DNA from: Methanoregulaceae archaeon PtaB.Bin056
GTDB lineage: Archaea; Halobacteriota; Methanomicrobia; Methanomicrobiales; Methanospirillaceae
Direction of reading: 5' to 3'
DNA: 50,071 nucleotides
Assembly (NCBI GenBank): GCA_002067095.1
Contig: MVQD01000067.1
Coordinates: 1-50,071, forward strand
Position numbers and translations under genes: made by a program. This document shows, one piece after another, positions 2,405-48,305 of the stretch. Each line of letters starts with the position of its first letter. Position 1 is the stretch's first letter. The notes below the pieces were generated by a model. That model was not told the DNA's origin, did no database searches, and saw only the letters and a program-made list of their open reading frames with translations.

Positions 2405-3239
2405 GTGAAAGGGGAATGCAAAGCCTCCTGCAGGAGGGATTATTCCCCCACCCCCATTGACTATCGGCACTTTCTTCCACGAAGAGCAAAATTCCCTGCG
2501 CTGGTTTCCAATGCCGGTAGAATTGATGCCACCAGGTGTGGAAGGAGAACTCAGTCCAGATTATCTCCCTGAAAGGATTCATCTCCCTTCGCAGGTCCGA
2601 GGGGAGGGTTCTGGAATAGGGTTTTTTGTTGCTCATTGAGCCAACGAGACGGCGGCTCTCCCCGCCATCAAAGGATTTGCCCTTAAAAATCGTTGCTGAA
2701 TTGGTGTCCAGGAAATCGACTCTTTGCTCTCTGGTAGTGGCAGGATTCACGAACAATGAACATTTTGTGCGGGCTCTCTTCTCCCCCACACCCGGATGCG
2801 ATGCGCCCCCGAGATGGGGCACCCTGGCGGCGTTTGGATAACCGGGGAGGTATGCAGACAACATCTCAATTCAGTTCCCAGAAAAACCAACCAGGAGACA
2901 AATGAGCGGAGACCTTCGGCCAGAGAGCGGACCCCATGTCAGGAAAAAAGGAGTCTTCACCCCAACTACTTGGAAAGATCGCAGTGTAACCCTATCAGTG
3001 TGTTCGCGCTTCAACCACGCTACTCCCTGCTTCCTGCCAACGGGTCTCTTTTATCCCGGATCAGATCCCGCCTGGAATAATGGGATTTTTGGGCATTCTC
3101 CTTCAATGGCGCGGATCTTCTGGGTGGTTTGAGAGATGCCCACCGACTATAATAAACTATATATTGCTATATGATAAGAAATAGAGAGAATACACGGGCG
3201 CAGCATTGGAACGGGGCTTGTTTGCGCCGGGAGGACCCT
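2405..3239. other. gene-free spacer
   Basis: Nothing coding is supported between the response regulator and the DUF5806 gene; short open frames occur on both strands without motifs. Besides the palindrome at 2424-2437, the only clear signal is an AT-rich promoter-like block, ACTATAATAAACTATATATT, around 3146-3165, which probably serves the downstream operon. Confidence 0.6.
2424..2437. other. 14-bp palindrome after the response regulator
   Basis: CCTCCTGCAGGAGG is a perfect 14-bp palindrome 20 nt downstream of the response-regulator stop codon. It could be the 3' end structure of that transcript or a dimeric protein site. It is followed by a short T-poor stretch, so it is not a classic terminator. 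Confidence 0.35.
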
Positions 3240-3809
3240 ATGCGTACACAGTATGGCCAGGAGGATGTCAACAAGTACCGTAAATTCAAGAAGGTGGATG
3301 GTGCGACCTACCGGAAGGTCAACCAGTTCCTCAGAAAGCGGACCTACGTCACCGCAAGGGAATGGGCCATCGCACGCCTCTGTACCGATTTCCGCACGCG
3401 GAGCGGCGCGGAGATGACTTTCATAGGTCAGCATTTACCCGAACTTGTCCCGTTCATGCAGGAATGCTACACCCCCCAGGCAGTGAACCAGGCCCGTAAC
3501 TCGTTCAAGAAGAAGATCTACAAGTCGGGGGCCACGTTCTTTTACGGGGCGATGTGCGGGTTCTTCACGAGCGAGGAACTTGACGACCTGCTCTTTGAGG
3601 CAAGCGAAGTTGCCCGGTTCCTCCTTGAGGTTGAGAAGACATCCCTTGATATCGACGAGGAGATCGAGATAGAGGACCGGATCACCGAGGTGATGAGAAG
3701 CGTCGGAGCGGCGGCCGCAAAGATCCTGCATGCAAGGATGCATGAGGAAGAAAAGGAGGGAGAGGGGCCGGTATCCGCCGGGATGCCTCCGGACGGGGAT
3801 ACCGCATGA
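3240..3809 (+). CDS. DUF5806 family protein
   Basis: The 189-residue product matches the remembered pattern of the archaeal DUF5806 family (a VNQFLRKRTY-like stretch, AREWAIARLC, TPQAVNQAR, and an acidic C-terminal helix). The family is shared by methanogens and haloarchaea and has no established function; it is soluble, with no signal peptide or membrane segment. The ATG at 3240 is chosen over an upstream in-frame ATG at 3171 because GGGAGG sits just before it and the upstream extension looks non-coding. An AT-rich promoter lies at about 3146-3165. Its stop overlaps the mobB start (ATGA), so the two are probably translationally coupled. Confidence 0.8.
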   Translation: MRTQYGQEDVNKYRKFKKVDGATYRKVNQFLRKRTYVTAREWAIARLCTDFRTRSGAEMTFIGQHLPELVPFMQECYTPQAVNQARNSFKKKIYKSGATFFYGAMCGFFTSEELDDLLFEASEVARFLLEVEKTSLDIDEEIEIEDRITEVMRSVGAAAAKILHARMHEEEKEGEGPVSAGMPPDGDTA

Positions 3810-42785: not shown

Positions 42786-43949
42786 ATGAAGAAGAAGTAC
42801 CTGGTTATCCTCGGAGATGGGATGGCGGACGAGCCTGTCCCCGGGCTCGGAGGCCGGACACCCCTCGAGGCAGCGAAAACCCCGAACATGGACCGCATCG
42901 CAAGGGAAGGTTCCTGCGGCCTCCTGCGGACCGTCCCCGACGGGTGCGAGGCAGGCTCCGATATCGCCAACCTCTCGATCCTCGGCTACGATCCCCGCCG
43001 CTACTACACGGGGAGGGGCCCGCTTGAGGCGGCGAGCATCGGGATATCCCTCGGGAACACCGACATGGCCTACCGCTGCAACCTCGTCACCGTCAGGGAC
43101 GGGATCATGGAAGACTTCTCTGCAGGGCACATCACGAGCGCGGAGGGGGCTCTTCTCCTCTCTTCCCTGGAGCGGGAGGTGTCTCCCGCGCGGGTATATG
43201 CAGGCGTGAGCTACCGCAACCTGCTGGTCCTTCCGGATGCCGGAGGGGCGACGACCGTCCCTCCCCACGACATCGTGGGCCAGGAGGTCGCACTCCATCT
43301 CCCTTCAGGCAGGGACGCACCCCTCCTCCTGGCCTGCATGCACGCATCGGAGAGGGTCTTTGCAGGCCACCGCGTGAATGAGGACCGGGTAACCCGCGGG
43401 CTCCGGCCGGCGACGCAGATATGGCCCTGGAGCGGCGGCAGGGTCCCCGCGCTCCCGCCTTTTCACGAGAAGTACGGCATGCGGGGCGGGATCATCTCCG
43501 CAGTCGACCTCCTCAAAGGCATAGGCAGGTATGCGGGGATGGAGATCATCGAAGTCCCAGGTGCAACAGGGTACCTGGACACCGACTACCAGGCAAAGGC
43601 GCGCTATGCGCTCTCGGCACTGAAGCGCCTGGACTTCGTCTACGTGCACGTCGAGGCTCCTGACGAGGCCGGCCACCTCGGGAGCGTGGAAGAGAAAGTG
43701 ACCGCAATCGAGCGGCTCGACGAGATGATAGGCACCATCATGCAGGAGTTCCGGGGGGTCATTGCAGTCCTCCCGGACCACCCGACACCTGTACGGACCC
43801 GGACCCATTCCCGCGAACCGGTTCCCTTTGCGGTTTTGGGAAAAGGAAAGGACGGCTGCCGGTCGTTCTCCGAGAAGGAGGCAGGCAGAGGAGACTTTGC
43901 GCTGATGGAGGGGCCGGACTTCCTCCCTCACCTCTTTTCCGAAGGCTGA
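42786..43949 (+). CDS. apgM: 2,3-bisphosphoglycerate-independent phosphoglycerate mutase (archaeal type)
   Basis: The 387-residue alkaline-phosphatase-superfamily enzyme has VILGDGMADEP with the first metal Asp, KTPNMDRIAREG, GSDIANLSILGYDP with the catalytic Ser, and the late HVEAPDEAGHLG and VLPDHPTPV metal sites. It interconverts 3- and 2-phosphoglycerate. It lies 25 nt after the epimerase gene and may be in its operon. The ATG at 42786 fits the family start. Confidence 0.92.
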   Translation: MKKKYLVILGDGMADEPVPGLGGRTPLEAAKTPNMDRIAREGSCGLLRTVPDGCEAGSDIANLSILGYDPRRYYTGRGPLEAASIGISLGNTDMAYRCNLVTVRDGIMEDFSAGHITSAEGALLLSSLEREVSPARVYAGVSYRNLLVLPDAGGATTVPPHDIVGQEVALHLPSGRDAPLLLACMHASERVFAGHRVNEDRVTRGLRPATQIWPWSGGRVPALPPFHEKYGMRGGIISAVDLLKGIGRYAGMEIIEVPGATGYLDTDYQAKARYALSALKRLDFVYVHVEAPDEAGHLGSVEEKVTAIERLDEMIGTIMQEFRGVIAVLPDHPTPVRTRTHSREPVPFAVLGKGKDGCRSFSEKEAGRGDFALMEGPDFLPHLFSEG

Positions 43950-44025
43950 ACGGGCACGTCCACTCGCGAGACGAGCCCTCCAGGGGGAAAGATTGGTATC
44001 CCCCCGTCGCCATCACTGGTGTGGC

Positions 44026-45558
44026 ATGAACGAGTCATGGCTGTTCGCCGAGCTCGAACGGGTGGCAGGGCCGCTCACCCCCCTGCAGAGGATACTCCTC
44101 GGTACCGACGGTTCGGTGACAAGGATCCTCGAGCTTGCGACCGGGGCACCGGTAACCATCACCACCCTTTTGCAGACAGTGGAATCGGCCGGGCCAGAGG
44201 TCGCAGAGATACTGGCTGTTCCCCTGGGCCAGGAGGTCAACCACCGCATCGTGGAACTGAAGAACACCAGAACCGGCGAGACCCTCATCTACGCAGAGTC
44301 CTATACGCCACTCTCCCGGCTCTCGCCGTCATTCCGGGAGGACCTGATGCGGGCCGATACCCCGATCGGGAGGATCCTGGAGCAGCACCAGCTGGAGACG
44401 CGGAGGGAGATCGTCAAGATGTCTGCCGGCCAAAGGCCGGCTCCGGTCGCCGCGTCATTCGGGCTCTCTGGGAAGCCGAGGTTCCTCTCCCGGCAGTACC
44501 GGATCATCCACCAGGAGCACCCCCTGATCCATATCGAGGAGATCTTCCCCGCCGCGCTCTTTTCGGGAGAGACGAGGGTGGTGATCGATGCGCCTTCAAG
44601 ACTGCACCTGGGTCTCCTCGACATGAACGGGGCGCTCGGGAGGGTTGACGGGGGAATAGGGCTTGCACTCGACGATCCCAGAATCGTCATCTCTGCAAGG
44701 CGGAGCGATACGTTCCTCGCGGAAGGCGGTGACGCGGACGCACGGGAGAGGGTCCTTGCCGCGGCGTCGGCAGTCTCCGGCTCACTCAACCTTCCCGGCG
44801 CCGCAGAGTTCACCATCCAGGCGCAGTTCCCCGGCCACGCAGGCCTTGGCAGGGGGACTCAACTCGCCCTCTCGGCTGCGTGTGCACTCTGCCGCCTTTA
44901 CGGCCAGGACTGGACGGCCAGGGACCTGGCGCGGATGACCGGGCGCGGGGGGACTTCGGGGATCGGGACCGCGGCCTTTGGAGCAGGGGGGTTCATACTC
45001 GACGGCGGGCACTCGTTTGGAGCGCGCCTTGACAAGACTGCGTTCCTTCCCTCCTCGGCCTCGCCCGGGGTCCGACCCCCGGAAGTGATCCTCCGGCGCG
45101 ATTTCCCGGAGGCCTGGAAGATCCTGCTGGTTATTCCTGACATCGCACCCGGGGCAAGCGGGGGAGCCGAGAGAGATCTCTTCAGTCGGTACTGCCCGGT
45201 GCCGCTCGAGGAGGTGCGCGAACTCTGCCACCTCGCGATGGTGTCCCTCCTTCCGGGCCTTGCCGAGGAGGACCTTGACCTCTTTGGCTCTGCGATCAAC
45301 AGGATGCAGGAACTCGGGTTCAAGAAGGTGGAGAACCAGCTGCAGCCCTCTCTGGTCGCAGACCTCATGGAGGCGATGCGGGATGCAGGCGCGGCGGGTG
45401 CGGGGCTGAGTTCGTTCGGTCCCGCGGTATATGCCATCGGAGAAGGGCGGATGCAGGACGTGGAGAGTGCGGCAAGGGAGACCATCCCCTCTCTTGGGGG
45501 AGACCGTGTGCTCCTCACCAGAGCCAGGAATTCCGGGGCGGTGGTCACTGTCGCATGA
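44026..45558 (+). CDS. mptG: chorismate lyase-like (DUF98) domain fused to beta-RFAP synthase MptG
   Basis: Residues 1-175 look like a DUF98/UbiC-type chorismate lyase (LTPLQRILLGTDGSVTRILE; LIYAESYTPLSRL), which would make 4-hydroxybenzoate and pyruvate from chorismate. Residues 187-510 are MptG: IDAPSRLHLGLLDMNGALGR, GLGRGTQLALSAACAL and GRGGTSGIGTAAFGAGGF of the GHMP-like fold. MptG condenses a benzoate with PRPP, releasing CO2 and pyrophosphate, the first committed step of methanopterin synthesis. The fusion fits work proposing 4-hydroxybenzoate, not 4-aminobenzoate, as its true substrate. The ATG at 44026 follows GGTG. No in-frame stop divides the halves. Confidence 0.88.
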   Translation: MNESWLFAELERVAGPLTPLQRILLGTDGSVTRILELATGAPVTITTLLQTVESAGPEVAEILAVPLGQEVNHRIVELKNTRTGETLIYAESYTPLSRLSPSFREDLMRADTPIGRILEQHQLETRREIVKMSAGQRPAPVAASFGLSGKPRFLSRQYRIIHQEHPLIHIEEIFPAALFSGETRVVIDAPSRLHLGLLDMNGALGRVDGGIGLALDDPRIVISARRSDTFLAEGGDADARERVLAAASAVSGSLNLPGAAEFTIQAQFPGHAGLGRGTQLALSAACALCRLYGQDWTARDLARMTGRGGTSGIGTAAFGAGGFILDGGHSFGARLDKTAFLPSSASPGVRPPEVILRRDFPEAWKILLVIPDIAPGASGGAERDLFSRYCPVPLEEVRELCHLAMVSLLPGLAEEDLDLFGSAINRMQELGFKKVENQLQPSLVADLMEAMRDAGAAGAGLSSFGPAVYAIGEGRMQDVESAARETIPSLGGDRVLLTRARNSGAVVTVA

Positions 45559-45623: not shown

Positions 45624-46118
45624 ATGAGCGGGCCAAGGACCCTCACCATCGGGATCACGGTGAACCTGGAGCACTACGAGAACCTCCGTCTCGAAGTGAA
45701 CGGGGAGGTGAAGGACCAGGAGGATGCCCGCGACCTTGCCCGGTTCCTCTCCGACGTGCTCGGGACCTACGGGCGCGGCGACCCGGCGACCGCCGAGAGG
45801 ATAGAGAGCTTCCGGCGCCGTGTCCTCCCTCCCGATGGAGAGAGGCGCGACCCGGTCTCAGAAACCCCTGGAAAGGGAGATGAGCCCGCTTTGGCAGGTG
45901 CTGCACCCTGTCCAACGCCCGCTCCGGCATGCGAGACCACCGCGCCACCTCCCGCGTCGCGAAGCCCCCCCTCGCCACTATCTGCGGCTGAAAAAGGGCC
46001 CGCAGCAGGAGCATTCATATGCGAGGAATGCGCAGCACCAGTGAACCAGGCGGAGCAGAAGATGAGCATGCTCTTTGCAAGCAGGGTCCTGTGCAGGAAA
46101 TGCCTCAAAAAAGTCTGA
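45624..46118 (+). CDS. zinc-ribbon protein of unknown function
   Basis: I do not recognise the family. The 164-residue protein has a compact N-terminal domain (about 1-68, TIGITVNLEHYENLRLEVNG), a Pro/Ala-rich linker (about 70-125) and a C-terminal zinc-ribbon-like part with CEEC and CRKC (about 130-164). The linker suggests the two ends move independently. It ends 42 nt before the likely orc1 start, so the two may be co-transcribed, hinting at a DNA- or RNA-related role. Confidence 0.7.
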   Translation: MSGPRTLTIGITVNLEHYENLRLEVNGEVKDQEDARDLARFLSDVLGTYGRGDPATAERIESFRRRVLPPDGERRDPVSETPGKGDEPALAGAAPCPTPAPACETTAPPPASRSPPSPLSAAEKGPAAGAFICEECAAPVNQAEQKMSMLFASRVLCRKCLKKV

Positions 46119-47300: not shown

Positions 47301-47360
47301 ATCATTTGATAACTCTTATCACTTCTGCTGCTATGTTCTATGGTAAAGGGGGTACTCCAC

Positions 47361-48305
47361 GTGCTCAGTGTAAACGAACTTGCCTTAGAGATTTTTGAAA
47401 ACCTGGCGGAATACGCCGAAGAATTCAACGCTGCATACCATGAACTTGATAACGGCGCACGGATCATCGATTGCGGGGTAAGCACACGGGGAGGGTACGC
47501 GGCCGGCCGCGCCTTCACCGAGATCTGCATGGGAGGACTTGGAGAGGTCAATTTCAGGATGGCAGACATCAGGGAGTTCCCCCTTCCTTTCATCGACGTG
47601 TTCACCGACTTTCCCTCAATCTCCTGCCTCGGCGCCCAGAAGGCAGGATGGACGATCAAGCACAACAACTACTTCGCCATGGGCAGCGGGCCTGCAAGGG
47701 CACTCTCCCTCAAGCCCAAGCACACCTACGAGGTGATCGAGTACGAGGACGACTTTGACTCGGCGGTCATTGCCCTCGAGAGCGACCACCTCCCCAACGG
47801 AGAGGTCATGGAGAAGATCGCAGAGGACTGCCATGTCGACGTGGGCAACGTCTGCGCCGTGGTTGCCCCCACGGCCTCAATCGTGGGTTCCATCCAGGTC
47901 GCCGGCCGTTGCGTGGAGACTGCCATCTACAAGCTGAACGAGCTCCACTTTGACACCCGCAAGGTCGTCGCGGCATTCGGATGCGCACCCCTTCCCCCCG
48001 TCCGGGGCCCGAAACTTGCGATGGGGGTGACAAACGATGCCACCATCTACCACGGAAGGATCATGCTGACCATGAAGGCCCCCGAGATCAAGGACTACCT
48101 GGAGAAGATCCCAAGCAACAAGTCCAAGGGATACGGAAAGCCCTTCAACGAGATCTTCAAGGAAGCAGGGTACGACTTCTACAAGATCGATACCTCCCTC
48201 TTCTCCCCGGCCGAAGTCGTGATCAACGAGACGTCTGAAGGCGTAGTCTACCACTGCGGCGCTGTGAACCCTGAAGTGACGCTCAAGTCGTTCGGGCTCA
48301 TCTAA
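47361..48305 (+). CDS. mch: methenyltetrahydromethanopterin cyclohydrolase
   Basis: The 314-residue enzyme hydrolyses or forms 5,10-methenyl-H4MPT in the CO2-to-methane pathway. Landmarks are DCGVSTRGGYAAGR, MGSGPARAL, VAPTASIVGSIQVAGR and the late GKPFNEIFKEAGYDFYKID. The GTG at 47361 (MLSVNELALEI) matches the family start and has GGGGG 8-9 nt upstream; an ATG at 47340 would add seven residues. An oligo-T tract follows the stop. Confidence 0.96.
   Translation: MLSVNELALEIFENLAEYAEEFNAAYHELDNGARIIDCGVSTRGGYAAGRAFTEICMGGLGEVNFRMADIREFPLPFIDVFTDFPSISCLGAQKAGWTIKHNNYFAMGSGPARALSLKPKHTYEVIEYEDDFDSAVIALESDHLPNGEVMEKIAEDCHVDVGNVCAVVAPTASIVGSIQVAGRCVETAIYKLNELHFDTRKVVAAFGCAPLPPVRGPKLAMGVTNDATIYHGRIMLTMKAPEIKDYLEKIPSNKSKGYGKPFNEIFKEAGYDFYKIDTSLFSPAEVVINETSEGVVYHCGAVNPEVTLKSFGLI

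Follow-up and report, generated by a model that had tools for sequence, protein, structure and literature searches.

The window, i.e. the whole 50,071-nucleotide stretch of Methanoregulaceae archaeon PtaB.Bin056 that was analysed, contains on its plus strand one gene (P0001, 44026..45558, 510 amino acids plus stop codon) in which an Rv2949c-like chorismate-lyase domain (DUF98, PF01947) is joined to MptG (beta-RFAP synthase). The encoded protein is probably a bifunctional entry enzyme to the arylamine part of tetrahydromethanopterin, which would convert chorismate to 4-hydroxybenzoate and use this compound as the substrate of its MptG half. New here are the bifunctional form, its spread, the one-way dependence of DUF98 on MptG across the phylum, and the pattern of losses; no earlier description of a DUF98-MptG fusion was found in the open-access literature, subscription papers being mostly outside that search.

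Structure and genomic context of the fusion gene

The gene is a single open frame from its ATG codon. The lyase domain covers amino acids 25-178 (44098..44559, + strand) with a Pfam score of 104.8 bits against a gathering cut-off of 22 bits, and is followed by the MptG domain at amino acids 186-506 (44581..45543, +), which exceeded the NCBIfam cut-offs of both the MptG equivalog NF040726 (371.1 against 328 bits) and the MptG subfamily TIGR00144 (338.7 against 113.5 bits). The claim of an earlier note on this DNA, that one polypeptide carries a DUF98-like domain and beta-RFAP synthase, is thus borne out, both domains passing curated cut-offs within one frame. Among solved structures, 2nwi (AF1396, a DUF98 protein) matched amino acids 17-180 with an E-value of 1.2e-33, and ForT (6yqq) matched amino acids 185-509 with 7e-39. 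ForT, an enzyme of C-nucleoside antibiotic formation within the MptG superfamily, has the PRPP-using C-glycoside synthase fold in common with the C-terminal half, but it is without a lyase domain, and its acid substrate differs from that of MptG.

An in-frame TTG codon at position 43993 precedes the ATG by 33 nt and follows the G-rich stretch GGGGGAAAGA; a start there would add an N-terminal extension (43993..44025, +). In three other loci (L041, L042 and L049) a TTG codon 33 nt upstream is likewise preceded by an identical or near-identical stretch, and because of this arrangement the true start of the gene may be the TTG, giving a product of 521 amino acids.

Upstream of the fusion lies a phosphoglycerate-mutase family gene (42786-43949, +). 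Downstream follow a gene for a 164-aa protein (45624-46118, +), for which no Pfam or NCBIfam match was obtained, an Orc1/Cdc6 gene, and mch, encoding methenyl-H4MPT cyclohydrolase (47340-48305), 1.8 kb from the fusion. Named relatives retrieved by way of mch (the best 80 of 101) were mostly Methanolinea and Methanoregula MAGs, and the fusion was visible at 11 of these 80 mch loci, many of which had short flanks.

Conserved residues and fold of the DUF98 half

Invariance of residues was first counted on 59 distinct DUF98 domains (14 stand-alone) and then widened to 76 genomes, in 42 of which the domain is fused and in 34 stand-alone. Arginine at position 74 (codon 44245..44247, +) and glutamate at position 172 (codon 44539..44541, +) were present in 76 of 76 genomes, as were D28-G29-S30, T32, N72, P113, G115 and R127, while position 114 was occupied by I in 73 genomes, V in two and L in one. 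The active-site arginine and glutamate of E. coli UbiC we take to be R76 and E155, and the ligand contacts presumably M34, R76, L114 and E155. Of these contacts, M34 corresponds to position 31 (occupied by V, I or M), R76 to R74, L114 to position 114, and E155 to one of E171 and E172. Similarity to UbiC at the sequence level is weak (hhalign probability 42, E-value 2.7e-4, 22% identity), and the profile alignment pairs the UbiC glutamate with E171; since position 171 varies across the 76 genomes and position 172 is invariant, E172 is proposed as the counterpart of the catalytic glutamate, with R74 as that of R76. Loss of catalytic residues, which the earlier note had named as evidence against a lyase, was found in none of the 76 DUF98 domains, and a decayed lyase half was ruled out by the invariant residues.

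A structure predicted with AlphaFold from 12 sequences was of good quality in the DUF98 half and of poor quality in the MptG half (mean pLDDT 64.8, pTM 0.44). The predicted DUF98 half superposed on 2nwi with a Z-score of 24.4 over 160 residues (rmsd 1.7), and on E. coli chorismate lyase (1g81) with a Z-score of 14.3 over 148 residues at 22% identity. With UbiC the domain thus has the fold in common and, by our proposal, the active-site arginine and glutamate. Non-catalytic UTRA effector domains, however, have the same fold, and they superposed on the predicted model at Z-scores of up to 18.2, above that of 1g81, so the fold alone is no proof of a lyase. In the scans of P0001, the UTRA family PF07702 remained under its cut-off (18.5 against 23.8 bits), as did the cyanobacterial chorismate-lyase equivalog NF037993 (48.9 against 175 bits), and PF04345 was absent from the Pfam matches listed up to an E-value of 1.

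The UTRA domains, second only to 2nwi in fold similarity, and the sub-threshold PF07702 score lend themselves to a reading of the DUF98 half as a UTRA-like sensor of chorismate, 4-hydroxybenzoate or pABA, which would tune an MptG that uses pABA. We regard such a sensor as quite unlikely: the 34 genomes with stand-alone DUF98, where a sensor would have no attached domain to act on, likewise have R74 and E172 without exception; a fused DNA-binding domain is absent; and no PabB-type gene was seen that could supply the pABA. A catalytic chorismate lyase is the preferred reading of the N-terminal half. Domain, fold and residues are those of the DUF98 family to which 2nwi belongs, and the difference lies in the fusion to MptG.

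The MptG half

The MptG half scores above both family cut-offs and retains the aspartate and arginine of the acid-binding region; what sets it apart from other beta-RFAP synthases is the additional N-terminal chorismate-lyase domain. In the alignment of 88 MptG domains, D199 was present in 86 (E in the other two) and R206 (codon 44641..44643, +) in all 88. By their spacing, these residues are equivalent to D19 and R26 of the Methanothermobacter thermautotrophicus enzyme, MTH0830 itself lying outside the alignment. According to an excerpt of PMC6787355, alanine variants of D19 and R26 in M. thermautotrophicus MptG were inactive, and MptG enzymes were assayed with pABA, which they accepted as a substrate.

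Distribution and origin of the fusion

Among the 61 genomes of the order, own genome included, 44 carried the fusion as a stop-free, full-length frame, and 15 carried neither half. In one of the other two (G014) the DUF98 domain runs to a contig end, and the other (G056) has MptG alone and no DUF98. Given the 44 full-length frames, an assembly artefact was ruled out. No unfused complete DUF98 was identified in the 61 genomes, all PF01947 matches being in frames of over 500 amino acids except for the cut copy in G014. When 49 of the best 80 named genomes were compared, 40 had both halves in one frame, two had pieces at contig ends, one had a remnant, and six were without the fusion; five of these six had only a distant MptG-like paralogue (see below) and one had no match at all.

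The phylum was sampled with 146 genomes, each at least 90% complete. PF01947 was present in 81 of these and MptG over the cut-off in 103, so that 81 genomes had DUF98 together with MptG, 22 had MptG only, 43 had neither, and none had DUF98 only. This co-occurrence is confounded by kinship, and a part of the group with neither gene, with two to four PF00425 genes, may be folate users. Among 14 control genomes, PF01947 was found in three, those of Synechococcus elongatus, Methanocaldococcus jannaschii and Methanosarcina acetivorans. The fusion accounts for 31 of the 81 DUF98 genomes, 22 of them in the order, seven in family f21 and two in family f12. The survey of fusions across methanogens called for in the earlier note hence showed that in the 146 genomes of the phylum DUF98 occurs only where MptG is present, and that the fusion is found, besides the 44 genomes of the order, in two further families.

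In the remaining 50 of the 81 genomes DUF98 is a separate gene, and a neighbour of mptG in one only (G061). At that locus (L132, G061:C9:70704-72192), the order is the reverse of that in the fusion, with mptG first and a stand-alone DUF98 gene after it on the same strand.

Direct hand-over, as suggested in the earlier note, goes further than the bifunctional enzyme itself: 4-hydroxybenzoate would pass from the lyase site to that of MptG without leaving the protein. Such channelling is possible, though doubtful. The two domains abut, the PF01947 match ending at amino acid 178 and that of NF040726 beginning at 186, and the order as well as families f12 and f21 have retained the fusion; yet contact between the domains is not generally needed, because DUF98 is separate in the 50 genomes, and the MptG half was predicted too poorly for a path to be traced. 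A fusion is a sign of coupling and does not by itself amount to channelling.

A single origin of the fusion agrees with the trees of both domains. In the MptG tree, a clade of the 42 fused rows with G056 was 14.8 log units better than the free quick tree (p-AU 0.81), and a clade of the fused rows without G056 was 7.9 units better (p-AU 0.67), the quick tree having placed one fused row with a long branch (G023) outside the fused group. In the DUF98 tree, from which one row with a very long branch (G163) was left out, one fused clade was 2.4 units worse and was not rejected (p-AU 0.43). The position of G056 near the fused rows, on a long branch, suggests that this genome has lost its lyase half.

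Source of the aromatic ring

The genome of PtaB.Bin056 has a single PF00425 gene, which matched best to archaeal TrpE (471 bits, under the cut-off of 512), PabB models giving lower scores. Next to it lies trpG, with trpC and trpB further on, and frames reading as trpD, trpF and trpA are located between and after these; scans covered four of the seven frames. The earlier note had asked for separate pab genes to be looked for, and as regards PabB none was seen: a separate PabB was ruled out, the sole PF00425 gene being located in the trp operon.

The same pattern extends over the order, where 52 of the 61 genomes had a PF00425 match, one each save for G004, G006 and G027, in which the two pieces seem to be one split gene. 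In the phylum, 28 of the 146 genomes had more than one PF00425 match, and none of these 28 had MptG over the cut-off or DUF98. The four phylum genomes without a PF00425 match include three with DUF98 (G060, G086 and G128).

With one PF00425 gene at most, TrpE is the only candidate maker of an amino-chorismate in the order. This would suit another route, in which TrpE and TrpG produce an amino-chorismate, the DUF98 half cleaves pyruvate from it to yield pABA, and MptG still acts on pABA, the substrate accepted by the enzymes assayed in the excerpt of PMC6787355. A title in the reference list of PMC8305020 names 2-amino-2-deoxyisochorismate as an intermediate of pABA formation in Bacillus subtilis. 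The three genomes with DUF98 and without any PF00425 match speak against this route, as do the published enzymes of the hydroxy route (PMC3261824, seen as an extract), and we hold it to be very unlikely. With 4-hydroxybenzoate as the product of the lyase half, the precursor part of the earlier note is well supported, by sequence (R74 and E172 kept) and by distribution (DUF98 only with MptG, and no PabB).

The argument has its limits in the 22 of 103 MptG genomes without DUF98 (e.g. G063, G068, G073, G083 and G160) and in the fusion-less genomes of the order, in which no second PF00425 gene of the PabB type was found either. Of the 22, 21 have exactly one PF00425 gene and one has none, and another source of the ring must therefore exist.

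Losses of the fusion, a remnant and a distant paralogue

The two halves were mostly lost together. In family f2 (28 genomes), 13 genomes have the full fusion, 12 have none, and three (G229, G230 and G234) have contig-end pieces or broken frames; PF00425 is missing in five of the 28, and four genomes (G244, G246, G247 and G238) are without both the fusion and PF00425. As the presence of the fusion is patchy inside the genera g25, g87 and g88, the gene has been lost several times.

The dihydropteroate-synthase-like family TIGR00284, which we take to be the step after MptG in the methanopterin pathway, was matched in 59 of the 61 genomes of the order, 47 of them over the cut-off. It was retained in 14 of the 15 genomes with neither half (11 over the cut-off, and one other a fragment), and most fusion-less genomes thus still appear to make the coenzyme, judged by this gene content. 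Genome G055, listed as 99% complete, has TIGR00284 over the cut-off, yet it is without DUF98 and without any MptG-like match.

The complete chromosome of Methanoregula sp. SKADARSKE-2 (G198; 1,949,073 bp) contains a remnant of the fusion, a DUF98 frame of 175 amino acids (L221, G198:C1:814500-821500, frame 3037-3564, - strand) which has K at position 172 and ends three residues later. No match to any of 92 MptG domains was obtained in the 7 kb around it, and a search of the whole genome with P0001 gave nothing beyond this remnant and the paralogue. Candidatus Methanoregula pelomyxae, an endosymbiont of the amoeba Pelomyxa schiedti, is given the same genome size of 1,949,073 bp in an excerpt of PMC10579272, where ordinary methanogenesis via H4MPT is described for it.

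The distant MptG-like paralogue was identified in 58 of the 61 genomes of the order, fusion-less ones included, at 22-30% identity. At one locus (L032 5345-6454, - strand; G000:C106:245431-246351) it adjoins a DUF2148 gene. Two scanned copies scored 88 and 91 bits with NF040726, and 78 and 80 bits with TIGR00144, under both cut-offs, and in four aligned copies R206 was replaced by A or D and the GRGGTSG stretch was altered. The paralogue might nevertheless serve the fusion-less genomes.

A wider reading of these losses, which we put forward tentatively as a rather doubtful one, is that the order is split between fusion-bearing prototrophs, which would derive the ring from chorismate, and auxotrophs, in which the whole gene was repeatedly lost and which would rely on an aromatic taken up from outside, for example pABA, perhaps by way of the paralogue, which is retained in nearly all of them. 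Ring supply would then be an exchanged vitamin trait, host-dependent in the amoeba endosymbionts. Methanomicrobium mobile (Methanomicrobiaceae) requires PABA and indole, according to an extract of PMC10658910.

Proposed role in tetrahydromethanopterin biosynthesis

For M. jannaschii, 4-hydroxybenzoate has been proposed as the precursor of the methanopterin arylamine. In the mechanism proposed for the fusion, the N-terminal DUF98 half would remove pyruvate from chorismate to give 4-hydroxybenzoate, which the C-terminal MptG half would condense with PRPP, CO2 and PPi being released, to form the hydroxybenzene riboside phosphate (RFHP). RFHP would then be converted through a succinyl intermediate to the amine by PurB, as reported for M. 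jannaschii: an excerpt of PMC3261824 credits to White 2011 (Biochemistry 50:6041) the conversion of RFHP to the succinyl compound and of this to the amine, the last step by M. jannaschii PurB. For this organism we infer that both halves are active on these substrates, that the reactions run in this order, and that the fusion is of benefit by coupling the formation of 4-hydroxybenzoate to its use.

The hydroxy route is an earlier proposal, and the fusion is best read as an extension of the route described for M. jannaschii. The proposed precursor and the MptG step are the same, and PF01947 is present in both; the difference is that lyase and MptG here form one polypeptide, known from its sequence.

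To our knowledge, the question of pABA versus 4-hydroxybenzoate had so far been argued from labelling, from extracts and from enzymes, in a small number of methanogens. The fusion, the one-way co-occurrence, the absent PabB-type gene and the joint loss are independent genetic evidence on the ring precursor, and they open the question to tests on a single protein and on pairs of close species that differ in the fusion. The coenzyme concerned is the carbon carrier of methanogenesis, of which 4-hydroxybenzoate would be a building block, and the pattern suggests which methanogens would need an aromatic vitamin, which is of practical value for their culturing.
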